Shown here one piece after another: positions 14,097-46,622 of a DNA stretch of 64,000 nucleotides. The first letter of the stretch is position 1, and each line of letters begins with the position of its first letter. The notes beneath the pieces were generated by a model. It worked only from the letters and a program-made list of their open reading frames with translations, ran no database searches and was not told the origin of the DNA. The stretch is taken from NCBI RefSeq assembly GCF_011039075.1, contig NZ_JAAKEG010000006.1, positions 1 through 64,000 on the forward strand, read 5' to 3'. A program made the translations under genes and the position numbers. Source of the DNA: Adlercreutzia sp. ZJ304. Its GTDB lineage: Bacteria; Actinomycetota; Coriobacteriia; Coriobacteriales; Eggerthellaceae.

Positions 14097-16712
14097 TTAA
14101 CTTTTTTGTATTCTTCGCATACGGAGACGATCAAATGCGTTATAGAGCAGCTGGAACACAACTAGATTTACCGCAGCGGCTATGCCAATAATTAGCCACA
14201 TTGTTGATGTAAATGGCGCTATGTTAAACAGCGGTCCCAGCAACGTTGAGCCCAATAATAACCCGCCAACAATAACGACCAACAGCGCTGCGCGAATAGC
14301 GTTGTACGGAATAGACAGCCTTATAACCAGCATAACGCCTATAAATGCAAACAACAGCACACAAAGCGTAGATACCTGCGCATAATTCAGCCCAGCGCCA
14401 TAACCCGTTATGCAAACTGCGAGTACTGTTAAAACGGCACAAATGGCACCGGGAATGGAATGCACTACGCAATTAGACAGGAAGCGCCCGCGAACACGCT
14501 CATGGTTCGGTTCTAGCGCAAGCACAAACGATGGAAGTCCTATGGTAAATGCACTTATCAGCGTCATCTGAATGGGCACAAACGGATATTGCCAAGGCAG
14601 GAAAATGAATAGTACCGCCGAAGTTATAGAGAACAGTGTTTTTATCAAGAAGAGAGATGCGCTGCGTTGCAAGTTATTTATAGAGCGCCTACCCTCTGCT
14701 ACAACCTTTGGCATGCTGGCGAAATCGTTATCGACCAACACCAGTTGTGCCACGTTGCGCGCAGCATCACTACCACTTGCCATAGCAACACTGCAGTCGC
14801 TTGCTTTCAGCGCAAGCACATCGTTCACGCCGTCGCCTGTCATGGCTACGATATGGCCTTGCGCCTGCAATGCCACAACGAATGCTTTTTTCTGCTCGGG
14901 TGTTACTCGCCCAAAAACACTGTATTTGTTTATGGCTTCAACTATTTGTTCATCGGTTTTAAGCGTAGTTGCATCAATATAATTTTCCGCCCCCGGTACG
15001 CCTACTTTTTGCGCAATGCCAGATACCGTATGCGGATCGTCACCACTTATTACTTTAAGCTGCACGCCCTGTTCGATGAAGTATCCTATGGTCTGTGCTG
15101 CTGTAGAACGTATCTGATCGCGCAGCATTATAAAACCAACAGGTTCAGGCTGACCTAATATGCCGCCTTCTTCAGTGAACCCGTCAACACGAGCCAACAG
15201 CAATACACGATTCTCAGCCGCCAATTCATCTAACTGCGGCTTTATATCGCGAAGCGCTTGCGCATTTGCAGCCAACACAAACTGTGCCGCACCCATAACG
15301 TAAGCCCCATCAGAAAACTCTGCGCCCGACCATTTTGTTTCCGAAGAAAACGGAATTGCACGAACAATCTCGCTGCAATGCGGCTGTTGGGATGCGGAGT
15401 GAAGGCTGCGCAGCTTCTGAGCAGAGCATTCAGAAGTCGCATCATAGCGCGGCTGCGTCTCAGAGCGTAGTGAAGGCTGCGAAGCTTCTGAACGAAGCTC
15501 TGAGCGAGCCGCGCCAGTTGGCAATTCTTCACCACAATGCGGCTGCGTCTCAGAGCGGAGTGAAGGCTGCGTAGCTTCTGAACGTAGCTCTGAGCGAGCC
15601 GCGCCAGTTGGCAATTCTTCACCACAATGCGGCTGCGCGTATTCAATTATTGCCCGCGCTGTATCGTTGGGGTCTTCATCCGATGCTGCAATGCTGGCAA
15701 ACAAGTGCACGAGTTCATCTTCTGAAACCGCATTGTTATGCGCCGCCACCACGCCGGCAACTTCCATACCACCTGTAGTTATGGTTCCCGTTTTGTCCAA
15801 GCAAAGCGTATCTACACGAGCCAGTGTCTCTATGCAATAAAGCTGCTGCACCAATACTTTATGACCCGCCAGCCTTATAACCGCCACAGCCAATACTGTA
15901 GAGGTTAGCAATATTAGTCCTTCAGGAATCATCCCAACAAGAGCTGAAACAGTACTTAAAATTGCCGAATCGGGTGCCACGTTATGCAAAAAATGAGTGC
16001 TGCCAAACAGCAGCAATCCCACAGGCACCATAGCCAAACTGACAAACTTAATTATGCGATTCAAGCTTGTCATTATTTCGGAATTTACAGCTTTGTGCTG
16101 CTTGGCTTCAGCGGTAATTTTGGCGGCGTAATTATCGGCACCCACATGCACAACACGCGCCCACACCATACCAGAATTTAAAAACGATCCACTCATAAGC
16201 GCATCGCCTGCAGCCTTTGCAACCGCTTTACTTTCGCCGGTAAGCAGGCTTTCATCTACACGACACGCGCCCTGCACAACAACAGCATCAGCCGGAACCT
16301 GATCGCCTCGACCTAGGCGTATCACATCGTCTAGCACCAGCTGATCTACCGACAGCTGCACCTGCTCGCCGTCACGCGCAACATCTATAAGCGATGCCGC
16401 CACAATGGAAAGCTTGTCAGTAACCATTTTTGAGCGAATCTCTTGCACGATGCCGATAATCACATTCACCACAATGATTATCATAAACAGCATGTTTTTA
16501 TACGACCCGGTAAAAAACACCAGCGTCGCAAGCACCACATTCACAAAATTGAATAGCGTGCAAATATTGTCTCGGAATATATCGCCGATGGAGCGTGTTT
16601 TTAAGCCAGTATCAACATTTACCTTGCCAGCTGATATGCGTTCAGCCACTTCAGCTGCAGTTAGCCCTTTAATGCTTGTATCAACCAAATTGCCAGCTAC
16701 GTTTTTAGCCAT
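14097..16712 (-). CDS. P-type cation ATPase (CtpE-like) with in-frame repeat insert
   Basis: This HAD-IC P-type ATPase of 871 residues has all core motifs: LLTGESKAV in the actuator domain, the phosphorylation site CLDKTGTIT, and AMTGDGVNDVLALKASD in the hinge. The transmembrane motif MIPEGLILLTS is like that of CtpE-type calcium or cation pumps, so the ion is uncertain. There are about ten membrane helices. The N domain is interrupted at about residues 357-450 by a repetitive low-complexity insert with repeated SELRSEA-xQPSLRSE units. It lies just before the conserved RAIPFSSETKWSGAEF segment. Related pumps have only a short loop there, so I judge the insert to be an in-frame repeat expansion. 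The reading frame stays open, and the pump is probably functional. Confidence 0.9.
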   Translation of the reverse strand: MAKNVAGNLVDTSIKGLTAAEVAERISAGKVNVDTGLKTRSIGDIFRDNICTLFNFVNVVLATLVFFTGSYKNMLFMIIIVVNVIIGIVQEIRSKMVTDKLSIVAASLIDVARDGEQVQLSVDQLVLDDVIRLGRGDQVPADAVVVQGACRVDESLLTGESKAVAKAAGDALMSGSFLNSGMVWARVVHVGADNYAAKITAEAKQHKAVNSEIMTSLNRIIKFVSLAMVPVGLLLFGSTHFLHNVAPDSAILSTVSALVGMIPEGLILLTSTVLAVAVIRLAGHKVLVQQLYCIETLARVDTLCLDKTGTITTGGMEVAGVVAAHNNAVSEDELVHLFASIAASDEDPNDTARAIIEYAQPHCGEELPTGAARSELRSEATQPSLRSETQPHCGEELPTGAARSELRSEASQPSLRSETQPRYDATSECSAQKLRSLHSASQQPHCSEIVRAIPFSSETKWSGAEFSDGAYVMGAAQFVLAANAQALRDIKPQLDELAAENRVLLLARVDGFTEEGGILGQPEPVGFIMLRDQIRSTAAQTIGYFIEQGVQLKVISGDDPHTVSGIAQKVGVPGAENYIDATTLKTDEQIVEAINKYSVFGRVTPEQKKAFVVALQAQGHIVAMTGDGVNDVLALKASDCSVAMASGSDAARNVAQLVLVDNDFASMPKVVAEGRRSINNLQRSASLFLIKTLFSITSAVLFIFLPWQYPFVPIQMTLISAFTIGLPSFVLALEPNHERVRGRFLSNCVVHSIPGAICAVLTVLAVCITGYGAGLNYAQVSTLCVLLFAFIGVMLVIRLSIPYNAIRAALLVVIVGGLLLGSTLLGPLFNIAPFTSTMWLIIGIAAAVNLVVFQLLYNAFDRLRMRRIQKS
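15391..15594. repeat. Palindromic coding repeats inside the P-type ATPase gene
   Basis: Three copies of an interrupted palindrome share the core AGTGAAGGCTGCG-n-AGCTTCTGA. The outer arms are GATGCG/CGCATC (15391-15396 with 15438-15443), CTCAGAGC/GCTCTGAG (15459-15466 with 15497-15504), and the same arms again (15549-15556 with 15587-15594). The last two lie in a direct tandem duplication of exactly 90 bp (15451-15540 and 15541-15630) with three mismatches. The units keep the ATPase frame open. Confidence 0.88.
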
Positions 16713-16885: not shown

Positions 16886-16962
16886 CCAGCAGCCAGCAGG
16901 CAGCAGTCAGCAGCCAGCAGCCAGCAGCCAGCAGCCAGCAGCCAGCAGCCAGCAGCCAGCAA
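16886..16962. repeat. Eleven-unit 7-bp tandem repeat (CCAGCAG)
   Basis: Eleven head-to-tail units of CCAGCAG run from 16886 to 16962, with single-base changes only in the third, fourth and last units. The tract starts about 170 bases upstream of the ATPase start and ends nine bases past the stop of the GDSL hydrolase gene. The rest of the 16713-16971 gap shows no gene. Confidence 0.92.
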
Positions 16963-16971
16963 GAATACACA

Positions 16972-42310: not shown

Positions 42311-44839
42311 CTAACTCTTGCTTGCCACTATAGCCTGTCCAAGAGATATACAACCATCGTTTGGCGGTAAATCGCGATTGATTGCAACCGTAAAACCTTC
42401 ACGCTGTATTGCCGCCAACGAATGCTCTATCAGATAGCGATTCATAAATACGCCACCCGATAACACCACAGTTTGTATGTCATAAGTAGCTGCTACAAGT
42501 TGCGCAACAGTTACAACCGCATCAACAATCGCATCATGAAAACGCCGCGCAATTATAGACACAGCAACGCCTGCGGCAAAGTCGTCCAATAAGGCGCGAA
42601 TGGCGGGTTCGGCATCTAGCAAAACTACAGATGTGTCTTGGGCTGTACTTTGTGCTGTAGCTGTATTTTTAACAACTGCAATTTCATAAGCAGCGTTATC
42701 GGAATTTTCAGAGGTGGTGAAGTTTATTGCCGCCTCTAACATTATGGCTGGCTCACCTTCATAGGTAGGCTCGGTGCAAATTCCCAAAAGCGCACTTACA
42801 GCATCGAACAGACGACCGACCGACGATGTATAGGGCGTATTCAGCCCGTTTTCTATCATGGTTTCGCATACTTTTGCCTGTTCGGCGCCAAGCGCTTGAA
42901 GCGCAAATTGCGCCCCGGGGTGTTCCAGCAAATCAAATTCCCACAAAATACCGTATGCCATGCGCAGCGGATGCTTTACGCATGCCTGACCTCCGGGCAT
43001 AGGCACATATGCAAAATTGGCGAATCGCTCAAATGCACTCAAATTTGACAACAACACTTCGCCGCCCCAAATGGCACCATCAGGTCCGTACCCGGTGCCG
43101 TCAAACGCAATTCCGCACACCGCATCCGACAAACCGTTTTCCGCCATAGCCGCTACTATGTGCGCATGGTGGTGCTGCACAAGCGTTAACGGTAAATCGC
43201 ATTTTTCGGATTGCTCATGCGCCCATTTGGAAGTGATATATTCAGGATGCATATCGCATGCTAGCGCAGTTGCGGCAAGATCGAATAGCTTTTCATAGCG
43301 CGCCTTTGCTTGCAGCCATGCATCAAAAGTTTCCGCATTTTCCACATCGCCTATATGCTGCGACACGAATGCATCTGCACCGCGCACGAATGTGAACGTG
43401 TTTTTCTGCTCTGGTCCTGTGGCGAAAATTACCGAGTCGTCTTCGCGCGACGCTTGCGAAGGCGGCAGCGAAATAGGCATAGGAGCAAATCCGCGCGCTC
43501 GACGCACGAACTGTATAGCATCGGAATCGCCAGTATTTATGACGCGAACAACAGAATCGTCGAATCGCGATAAAATTTCGCGATTATTGCCAAGAAACGC
43601 ATCGGCTATACCTGCAAGTTTTTCGTAGGCTTCTTCATCATTTATTACTATTGGTTCGTCATGCAGATTCCCGCTAGTCATAACCAACATGGGAACACTG
43701 GTGCCCTGCCCGCTGCGCTGCGCGCCTTTTGCTCTCAAACGCGAATAAGCTGCACAAAAATCATTCAGAAGAATATGCTGCACAGGCGTATAAGGCAGCA
43801 TAACCCCTAATTCAGGCAAACCATCAGCTATGCCCTTAGGAGTTTTTATGCCGGGCAACTTGCGCAACAGCACTATTGGGCGTTGACTACCTTCAAGAAG
43901 TTTTCGTTCGGAGTCGTTCACTTGGCAAATTGCACGCACATCGTCTAGACGACTGCACATAACCGCAAATGCTTTGGCGGGACGCCGCTTGCGCCGACGC
44001 AATTCAGCAACAGCCTGCGCGTTATTTGCATCACACACCAAGTGAAAACCGCCCAAACCCTTTACAGCTAGTATTTTGCCGTCGCAGAGCATATCAACCG
44101 CTGCCGCAAACACCGCATCTGATGACCCAGAGGGGCGAAGTGAAGGCTGCGAAGCTTCTGAACGTAGCACTTCTGGGTTATCAGAGCCGAAAGAGTGAAG
44201 TGAGGGCTGCGCAACTTCTGAACGTAGCCCTTCCGCATCGCCAGAATCGGACAAGGGCACATACCATGAAACGCAAGGACCGCAATCAAAGCACGCATCA
44301 GGCTGCGCGTGAAAGCGACGATCAACCGGGTTGGCATATTCCGCAGCGCATTCATCGCACATTTTAAATTCACGCATGCTAGTAGACGCACGATCGTATG
44401 GAAGCGAGTCTATGATAGTGAAGCGCGGACCGCAATTCGTACAATTTATAAACGGATAACGAAAACGCCTATCTTCCGGATCAAACAATTCACGTTCGCA
44501 ATCGGCACAAGTAGCTAAATCGGGAGACACAAGTGTGCGCTCCCCTTCCGCAGACGCATCCGACGTGCGAATTTCAAACGAATTGTAACCCTCTATTGGA
44601 ACCTCGTGCATTTCTATTTCAGTTATTTGCGCGGCAGCGGGCGCGCTATCTGAAATAGCCAGCACAAATTCATCCACCAGCTTTTCTTCGCCCTCGGCGT
44701 GTATATGCACACCATCAGCGCTGTTCAGCACCCATCCATTCACAAGATAGCGCTTTGCCAACCTATAAACAAAGGGGCGAAAACCCACCCCTTGCACTAT
44801 GCCTTTTACCCATATATCAAGCGCACTAAGCAAGCACAT
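42311..44839 (-). CDS. hypF: Carbamoyltransferase HypF with in-frame repeat insert
   Basis: HypF makes the cyanide ligand precursor for [NiFe]-hydrogenases from carbamoyl phosphate. Domains in order are acylphosphatase (KGIVQGVGFRPFVYRLA, residues 8-95), two zinc fingers (CADCEREL, CTNCGPRF, CDECAAEY, CFDCGPC), YrdC-like (KGLGGFHLVCDA onward) and Kae1-like with QHHHAHIVAAMAE and FDGTGYGPDG. At about residues 203-241, between the second zinc finger and the YrdC domain, lies an extra stretch with two LRSE-xxQPSL units, matching repeats in the P-type ATPase. The ATG at 44839 follows GGAGG and overlaps the pgi stop by 14 bases. Confidence 0.95.
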   Translation of the reverse strand: MCLLSALDIWVKGIVQGVGFRPFVYRLAKRYLVNGWVLNSADGVHIHAEGEEKLVDEFVLAISDSAPAAAQITEIEMHEVPIEGYNSFEIRTSDASAEGERTLVSPDLATCADCERELFDPEDRRFRYPFINCTNCGPRFTIIDSLPYDRASTSMREFKMCDECAAEYANPVDRRFHAQPDACFDCGPCVSWYVPLSDSGDAEGLRSEVAQPSLHSFGSDNPEVLRSEASQPSLRPSGSSDAVFAAAVDMLCDGKILAVKGLGGFHLVCDANNAQAVAELRRRKRRPAKAFAVMCSRLDDVRAICQVNDSERKLLEGSQRPIVLLRKLPGIKTPKGIADGLPELGVMLPYTPVQHILLNDFCAAYSRLRAKGAQRSGQGTSVPMLVMTSGNLHDEPIVINDEEAYEKLAGIADAFLGNNREILSRFDDSVVRVINTGDSDAIQFVRRARGFAPMPISLPPSQASREDDSVIFATGPEQKNTFTFVRGADAFVSQHIGDVENAETFDAWLQAKARYEKLFDLAATALACDMHPEYITSKWAHEQSEKCDLPLTLVQHHHAHIVAAMAENGLSDAVCGIAFDGTGYGPDGAIWGGEVLLSNLSAFERFANFAYVPMPGGQACVKHPLRMAYGILWEFDLLEHPGAQFALQALGAEQAKVCETMIENGLNTPYTSSVGRLFDAVSALLGICTEPTYEGEPAIMLEAAINFTTSENSDNAAYEIAVVKNTATAQSTAQDTSVVLLDAEPAIRALLDDFAAGVAVSIIARRFHDAIVDAVVTVAQLVAATYDIQTVVLSGGVFMNRYLIEHSLAAIQREGFTVAINRDLPPNDGCISLGQAIVASKS
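44121..44235. repeat. Palindromic coding repeats inside hypF
   Basis: Two copies of the same core found in the P-type ATPase gene (AGTGA-GGCTGCG-n-A-CTTCTGAACGTAGC) lie 60 bp apart. The outer arms are GATGACCCAGA/TCTGGGTTATC (44121-44131 with 44172-44182, one non-Watson-Crick pair) and CGAAAGAG/CCCTTCCG (44188-44195 with 44228-44235; fully paired with G-U in the sense RNA). Both keep the hypF frame. Confidence 0.88.
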
Positions 44840-46622
44840 CAGCCTCCGCCGCATTTGCCAGCGCATCATCGGAAAACTCGTCTATATCTTCGGCGAATTC
44901 CAATTCGCGATTTACCAAAACTTCACCTATTACGTCAGCTATAACCGCAGCAAGCATACGAAGTGTAACCGCTGAATTATCGGGAAGATGCAGATGCACC
45001 ACTCGCCTACCGCGATCTGCCAACGTAAGCGCATCGCCCACAGCTTGCGCCTTTGCCAAGCTGCCAAGTGAAGGCGCTTGCGAATCGGCGGGCAACTGAA
45101 TATCCTTCAGTTCGTCAGCTGAAAGTATCAAAAACACGCCACAATCTGGACCGCCCTTTTGAAGCTGCCCCGTAGAATGCAAATAACGCGGTCCCACCTC
45201 TAAGCACGACACTATGCCAAACGCCTCAGCTATATCATGGCGAATGCATTCTAGCGCCTCGCGCCTACCTTCACCGGTAAACGGCAAAAACGCATTCAGA
45301 GCAAAATAGTCGCCCGGCAATATGCCGTCTATCAGACCATAAAGCGTGCTGCGCAAATGCGTGCGGCTTTTCAAGTTGTGCGACTGGCGCACTTCGACAA
45401 GACCCATATCTAAACCAGATGTGAAAGTTTCTACATAATCGGGATCAGAAATTCCTTCGTCAAGAATTTTCACTACCGCAGCTTTCGTGGAAGCCACGTC
45501 GGGCTGATCGAACGGACAAACGCGCATTAAATAGCCGCACATTGCTATGGCGTATTCCCACATCACAAAATGCTCAGCAAGTTCGTTCACATTCTTGATG
45601 CGGTAATTTTGACGCGGAATGTTCGGGTCGATGTAGGCTAAACTCATTTCGAAATTGCGACTTTCATCCCACAGATCGGTTTCGGTCTTGTACATAATTA
45701 CCGACCTATCGCCCGGATCTTCCGTCAGAAGCAACGTGTCAATCTCGATATTAGGCAGAATGCCCTGTCCGCCCTTACCTAAGCTTTCCGCCACCAACTG
45801 TTCAATCCAAAGACCTAATACACGCCCGCGTTTAGGCGTAAGGAAGCTGAACTTGTTGCGCCCCTGACAGAAATTGTCAAACAAAAACGCCGCTAAATTA
45901 ACAGCCGGATTGTCTATGGCATCTTCACTACAACGACGCTCGGCTTCGCATGCATGCGCCAAAAAATCGTTCAAATCTATACCAACCAGCGCTGCGGGCA
46001 AAAGCCCAAACACCGAAAGAGCGCTGAAGCGACCGCCAACAGACGGCTCGCCCAAAAATACCGCACGCCAACCTTCTTCGCGCGCCAGCTTTTCCAATTC
46101 GGTGCCCGGATCGGTTATAGCCACAAGATGCTTTGGGAAATCAGGCCCTAGCGCCTCGCTAAAATGTTCGCGAATGGCGCGTAGCTGCGTGCGCGGCTCT
46201 ATCGTGCCGCCACTTTTGCTGCTTACTATGAAAAGCGTGTTCTTTGGATTGCACGATGCGAACATAGCACGCATACGCACAGGAGAATCGCTATCCAAGG
46301 TTTTAAACAACACTCGGTTATTGTCGGGCTTGTTGTATTTTGTAATGGTCATAGGTGCCTGAGTTGAACCACCCTGACCCAGCAACACAACCGACTCTAT
46401 TCCCTCGGCAATTACTTCGTCAGCAAATTTCATAAGTTGCACGACATCGCACTGAGGCTTACTGCCCAAGCGCGCCCAGCCCATGAAATCGCCCGCACAT
46501 TGCTGTGCGCTTTCAGAAAAGTCATACACGCTGCCATCTTGCTCAAAGATGCGGCTAGCTATATGTTCTTTCACCAGCGTTTTGGCTGACGGATACAGTT
46601 TTTCCATATCTCCGGATATCAT
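44826..46622 (-). CDS. pgi: Glucose-6-phosphate isomerase (long form)
   Basis: This 598-residue SIS-fold isomerase interconverts glucose-6-P and fructose-6-P. It has LLGQGGSTQAPM, the sugar-binding SSKSGGTIEPRTQL (SKSGxT type), GEPSVGGRFSALSVFGLLPAAL, and LGKGGQGILPNIE with a catalytic Glu. The C-terminal 100 residues (LILSADELKDIQLP onward) match the extended actinobacterial/cyanobacterial-type PGI, also known as the C-terminal half of transaldolase-PGI fusions. Here no transaldolase part is attached. The start at 46622 could instead be the ATG of MEKLYPSA shortly after. Confidence 0.9.
   Translation of the reverse strand: MISGDMEKLYPSAKTLVKEHIASRIFEQDGSVYDFSESAQQCAGDFMGWARLGSKPQCDVVQLMKFADEVIAEGIESVVLLGQGGSTQAPMTITKYNKPDNNRVLFKTLDSDSPVRMRAMFASCNPKNTLFIVSSKSGGTIEPRTQLRAIREHFSEALGPDFPKHLVAITDPGTELEKLAREEGWRAVFLGEPSVGGRFSALSVFGLLPAALVGIDLNDFLAHACEAERRCSEDAIDNPAVNLAAFLFDNFCQGRNKFSFLTPKRGRVLGLWIEQLVAESLGKGGQGILPNIEIDTLLLTEDPGDRSVIMYKTETDLWDESRNFEMSLAYIDPNIPRQNYRIKNVNELAEHFVMWEYAIAMCGYLMRVCPFDQPDVASTKAAVVKILDEGISDPDYVETFTSGLDMGLVEVRQSHNLKSRTHLRSTLYGLIDGILPGDYFALNAFLPFTGEGRREALECIRHDIAEAFGIVSCLEVGPRYLHSTGQLQKGGPDCGVFLILSADELKDIQLPADSQAPSLGSLAKAQAVGDALTLADRGRRVVHLHLPDNSAVTLRMLAAVIADVIGEVLVNRELEFAEDIDEFSDDALANAAEADVLA

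Follow-up and report, generated by a model that had tools for sequence, protein, structure and literature searches.

A dispersed hairpin repeat of Eggerthellaceae with copies in frame in a P-type ATPase gene

Hairpin copies in the ATPase and hypF genes

The window, by which we mean the whole 64,000-nt stretch of the genome of the gut-type bacterium Adlercreutzia sp. ZJ304 (the host genome) that was analysed, contains a P-type ATPase gene and hypF, both of which hold copies of a short hairpin (Table 1). The initial annotation had proposed that a palindromic repeat lies in frame in the ATPase, and this was confirmed. Relatives align over ATPase residues 1–362 and 447–870, with a short loop joining the two blocks; the insert was missing from 12 relatives, which have a few to ∼20 residues at that place.

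Table 1. Features of the window that carry or compose the hairpin repeat
Feature	Position	Strand	Details
P-type ATPase gene	14097..16712	-	871 aa; E1-E2 ATPase and HAD hydrolase domains; hosts the insert
In-frame insert in ATPase	15375..15626 (about)	-	residues ∼363–446, ∼84 extra
Hairpin copy 1 in ATPase	15378..15442	+	core 15398–15425; stem partly decayed
Hairpin copy 2 in ATPase	15449..15512	+	core 15469–15496
Hairpin copy 3 in ATPase	15539..15602	+	core 15559–15586
90-bp tandem duplication	15440..15619	.	holds ATPase hairpin copies 2 and 3
hypF	42311..44869	-	852 aa; two hairpin copies in the linker between zinc finger and YrdC/Sua5
First hairpin copy in hypF	44119..44184	+	18/19 stem pairs
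Second hairpin copy in hypF	44179..44244	+	partly decayed

The two tandem units of the insert (15440–15529 and 15530–15619) share 92% identity, and the three differences within their cores fall exactly at the three free positions of the core. In these tandem copies the stem is formed by CTCAGAGC/GCTCTGAG together with an outer GCGGCT/AGCCGC. The core, AGTGAAGGCTGCGnAGCTTCTGA, was found at 15398, 15469 and 15559 in the ATPase gene and, exactly, at 44139 in hypF, while a second hypF core at 44199 has 2 mismatches to it; the earlier observation that hypF shares the core holds for two copies. The window yielded 5 cores where shuffled windows gave an expectation of 0.00. The model of this short-family hairpin (R1) gave 55–63 bits for the three ATPase copies and 77.5 bits for the first copy in hypF. 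A separate tandem repeat of CAGCAGC/CAGCAGT type lies at 16888–16963, immediately upstream of the ATPase start.

Structure, copies and distribution of the short hairpin

The hairpin has a self-complementary stem, usually of 16–28 bp, and an asymmetric tip of ∼30 nt. Tips are 90–94% identical in pairwise comparisons between copies, whereas arms are ∼41% identical, versus 28–33% expected from composition. The initial annotation needs refining here: conservation lies in the apical module, and the palindrome arms vary. The tip sequence is GRA-GY-GAAG(G)CT-GCGN-AG-CTTC-TGA-RC-GNA, which forms a 3x3 GRA/GNA internal loop, two GY-RC pairs, a 3-nt TGA bulge, the helix GAAG/CTTC, a bulged G, the pairs CT/AG and a GCGN loop. 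Three positions of the tip are free, namely the central one in either strand of the internal loop and the apical N. One short-family copy (L112, ∼1501–1602, in G136:C128) has 36 extra bases in the apical loop between GGATC direct repeats, which looks like a secondary insertion.

Covariation was evaluated in a gap-free alignment of 71 copies. Mutual information was confined to one helix register (i+j = 65, an 18-bp stem) and to the tip pair 22:43, which is either T-A or C-G. The named structure had 87.6% of its cells paired, versus 35–45% when partners were slid by 1–3 columns, and its 510 double-change cells were matched by 0 of 500 shuffles. Stem mismatches of the GT and AC types stood at 35:23, without a strong wobble excess of the RNA type. 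Both strands of the tested copies fold, as DNA and as RNA; the folding test took six stretches, of which one off-register stretch (L106) was left out of the reading.

The repetitive nature proposed for the element was borne out on searching the genome and its relatives, with at least 34–36 copies in the 2.0-Mb host genome (36 places with a 70-nt query and 34 by covariance model). Ten copies lie within five genes, those for the P-type ATPase, hypF, murD, rsmB and an acyl-CoA dehydratase activase, all of which read antisense to the hairpin core and mostly in the SEAxQPS frame. Across all carrier genes, the coding copies use at least four frames and both orientations, SEAxQPS being merely the commonest antisense frame, which argues against a function at the peptide level. 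The view of the repeat as an invader of coding sequence stands in part: in-frame entry is real, but just these 10 of about 36 host copies are in genes. Host copies outside the five genes are mainly intergenic and often between convergent genes; where the neighbours are clear, the flanking genes are convergent or in the same direction, and none are clearly divergent. Neighbouring copies have the same orientation in 13 of 13 pairs. On inspection, some host copies end in TTTT within the stem, and most are without a clear T run.

The in-frame entry into murD, rsmB, hypF and other core genes marks natural insertion sites in conserved proteins, and places some copies in frame within essential-type genes. 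For the activase gene, two genera have the same hairpin in a linker that is otherwise unalignable, and most bases of the hairpin are retained; the host activase gene has a copy in that same linker in the opposite orientation (L006, L083 and L091 for the three genera). The linker is possibly an insertion hotspot, or the element may have flipped. Two further observations concern the host assembly (G000). Contigs C6 and C32 share several identical repeat loci in mirror order, from which it follows that C6 has a duplicate of part of C32, either real or an assembly effect; and C29:161106 and C29:169426 look identical over the compared stretches.

Querying 84,980 species genomes with the exact tip pattern returned 37 stretches, all from records whose titles give Eggerthellaceae, Eggerthellales, Coriobacteriia or one of the family's genera, among them Adlercreutzia, Ellagibacter, Enterorhabdus, Gordonibacter and Rubneribacter. 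By model, the short family was found in 19 of 138 Eggerthellaceae genomes in a patchy pattern, with copy numbers of 34 (host), 25 (G062), 12 (G069), 9 (G085 and G086, each) and one (others). Of 149 genomes sampled across the class, the host alone had a match, and a search of phage, plasmid and viral contigs produced none; in the collections searched, the short family is confined to Eggerthellaceae. The matches to its core come from cultured strains and from MAGs, that is, from independent genomes. In two genera the tip is a shorter variant and stems measure ∼20–27 bp; of 75 short-family copies, 13 have a CAGGT motif after the right arm, these being in genera other than the host's.

Orthologous sites without the hairpin were available for comparison. 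One host hairpin pair lies between convergent genes that abut in two genomes of the same genus, with no palindrome between them, and in a comparison with A. faecimuris, two Adlercreutzia relatives have a hypA/hypB-type junction that is without the hairpin altogether. Since the same-genus empty sites are clean, with no palindrome, a lineage-specific gain is favoured; judging from these sequences, the gain is likely, although absence in the relatives could instead be loss. Flanks at the empty sites are too diverged to place the insertion boundary or to show a target-site duplication. No single arm matching the hairpin was present at the empty sites inspected, contrary to the idea that the arms are an inverted duplication copied from the target. 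Unrelated loci of one genus have similar arms, so the hairpin unit can disperse whole.

Among six orthologous copies, changes were found at 2 of 162 fixed tip sites and at 7 of 18 for the three free positions. Arm changes numbered 17 of 240, versus about 7% in the flanks, so these pooled counts do not support arms evolving faster than their surroundings; three of the arm changes are compensatory pairs. Constraint this strong between orthologues suggests some role in place, something that a purely selfish element could do without.

Relation to known repeats and proposed mode of spread

Rickettsia palindromic elements (RPEs) are repeats that lie in frame within unrelated protein genes, where they are translated and not disruptive; the peptide that an RPE family encodes is conserved (PMC10969869). 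The initial annotation had likened the ATPase repeat to these elements, and the concept is indeed alike, given in-frame entry into genes as unrelated as those for the ATPase, hypF, murD, rsmB and the CoA-dehydratase activase. Strictly speaking, however, it is no RPE: it differs in frame and orientation from one carrier gene to the next, there is no fixed frame or conserved peptide, its arms are unconserved, its host-genome copies are mostly intergenic, and its taxon is unrelated. This comparison was by description, and the exact hairpin core was found solely in Eggerthellaceae/Coriobacteriia genomes.

REP/BIME elements (GTAG and CGTC types) are short dispersed palindromes found mainly between convergent or same-direction genes and sometimes in genes; their stems of 5–13 bp are conserved within families, they have a GTAG or CGTC end tag, and they often form head-to-head dimers (PMC3733652). 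The short dispersed palindromes described here have a similar gene setting, but their stems are usually 16–28 bp at ∼41% identity and their pairs are 13/13 in the same orientation. An unpaired GTAG or CGTC end tag was seen on none of the host-genome copies. Nor does a RAYT-driven REP origin fit, the Y1 family being missing in several heavy carriers: Y1/RAYT transposase (PF01797) was absent from carriers G062, G069, G114 and G022 (G062 and G069 being ∼85% complete). The host has one Y1 protein, a short one of IS200 type (open frame of 172 aa, G000:C29:96073-96429). The hairpin family could not be linked to any transposase. Conserved terminal inverted repeats are the defining feature of MITEs; our hairpin resembles MITEs in being small, non-coding, self-complementary and presumably non-autonomous, but differs in that its inverted arms are its least conserved part. 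A search of Rfam 15 with the hairpin gave no match near the gathering score, setting aside a known RNA family. In agreement with the earlier suspicion that such a repeat was undescribed in Coriobacteriia, the open PMC literature contained no description that we could find of the hairpin family, for this class or otherwise. The family belongs with the dispersed palindromes, and we place it as a variant within them because the tested defining features of REPs and RPEs fail and Rfam has no match.

The comparisons above establish many copies, a shared structure, covariation, constraint on the tip, differences in presence and absence, and in-frame insertion. The reading that we favour, with reasonable though far from full confidence, is a dispersed non-autonomous hairpin repeat of Eggerthellaceae that spreads as a unit, through a factor recognising its folded tip. 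The unit would spread within and between genomes; most insertions would be at the 3' ends of genes and a few in frame in protein linkers or surface loops; same-orientation pairs would often arise by local duplication; and after insertion the stem would drift while keeping its pairing and the tip would stay fixed. That the tip is fixed while the stem drifts and yet stays paired is our reason for placing recognition at the tip of the folded hairpin rather than in the stem sequence. Its function would be at the nucleic-acid level, since constraint on the tip does not depend on the reading frame or strand of the gene in which a copy lies. The absence of a strong G-U preference among stem mismatches (35, versus 23 A-C) inclines us slightly, and weakly, toward DNA rather than RNA as the form recognised. 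Active mobility, recognition of ssDNA and not RNA, the identity of the enzyme and the chemistry of transposition are what we infer from these patterns.

Some of the same evidence could be read otherwise. Conserved loops with covarying stems are the usual signature of structured RNA, and the hairpin could be an RNA signal, for instance one that serves 3'-end stability, processing or termination and presents a protein-binding tip, which was multiplied by its usefulness downstream of genes and whose coding copies are tolerated strays. The convergent or same-direction setting of the clear host intergenic sites, with none clearly divergent, would suit such a signal, as would the strong folding of both strands and the constraint at orthologous positions. 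We nevertheless rate it as rather unlikely, given the lack of an Rfam match, the weakness of the excess of G-U over A-C, the coding copies in both orientations relative to mRNA, and the variable presence at a locus between close relatives. Less probable again is that the complementarity of the arms is made or kept by a mutational process, such as template switching in quasi-palindromes, instead of by selection. Near-perfect stems that are nearly unrelated between copies, and the compensatory double changes between orthologues, are what such a process would leave; against it, the tip's asymmetric internal loops and bulges remain fixed instead of becoming symmetric, arms overall change no faster than flanks, and some stems decay.

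The variable arms, and the many sites between convergent genes, might also have arisen if a conserved core had inserted into the loops of pre-existing palindromes such as terminators. This we consider very improbable, since all empty orthologous sites examined, at the same-genus gene pair and the hypA/hypB-type junction, are without the older palindrome that it calls for. Finally, the 90-bp tandem duplication in the ATPase insert could by itself be taken for an ordinary tandem peptide repeat, a low-complexity expansion or an assembly artefact, a reading we regard as negligible and one contradicted by the core itself, which has structure and covariation and recurs on many contigs (about 36 places) and across independent genomes.

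Most bacterial dispersed repeats are recognised through conserved ends or stems. Conservation of the tip only, with a stem free save for pairing, points to recognition by shape. Should a protein that recognises the hairpin exist, the one tip with its ∼36 natural stem variants would offer a ready-made set for testing it.

A longer hairpin family

The repeat proved wider in scope than the initial annotation suspected, in that a long sister family of the same design is common across Eggerthellaceae. One site that is occupied by the short hairpin in A. faecimuris carries a longer hairpin in a relative. This long family (model R2) has a ∼75-nt core with conserved strands CACCAAGCGAGTTCC and GGACTGTCTGAGCGACTG, outside of which lies a variable outer stem and between which is enclosed a variable inner stem. 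It thus follows the short family in setting a variable outer stem around conserved strands, but has an inner stem of its own, a different conserved module and a far wider spread, being found in 78 of 138 Eggerthellaceae genomes and 27 of 48 genera. The host has 13 long-family copies, one of them in murD beside short-family copies. The edges AGCGA and CTGAGCG are common to both families, and the two are presumably homologous. A tentative extension, to which we give little weight at present, is that short and long hairpins form a modular mobile class defined solely by the internal-loop module, in which a dedicated factor would recognise the folded module and move or copy it irrespective of its stem; stems could then take on any self-complementary sequence, and modules would be interchangeable at a site. 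The long family is present in most of the genera examined of this important gut group, and is without an Rfam model.

Matches to the R2 model outside Eggerthellaceae include single copies with weak scores, some of which may be chance long hairpins, as is conceivable for a model that is mostly structural. Collinsella has a long-family-like hairpin that lies between convergent genes. In the phage, plasmid and viral search, the sole long-family match was to a 900-kb Collinsella record called a plasmid (L295, NZ_OY725717.1, "plasmid 6"); it carries genes of housekeeping type (manA, UvrD helicase) along with the long-family-like hairpins, and is probably a piece of chromosome. Intergenic stretches of two other genomes (L255 in G002 and L256 in G001) contain clustered TGTTTCACATGAAACA-like palindromes that resemble ParB-binding parS sites.
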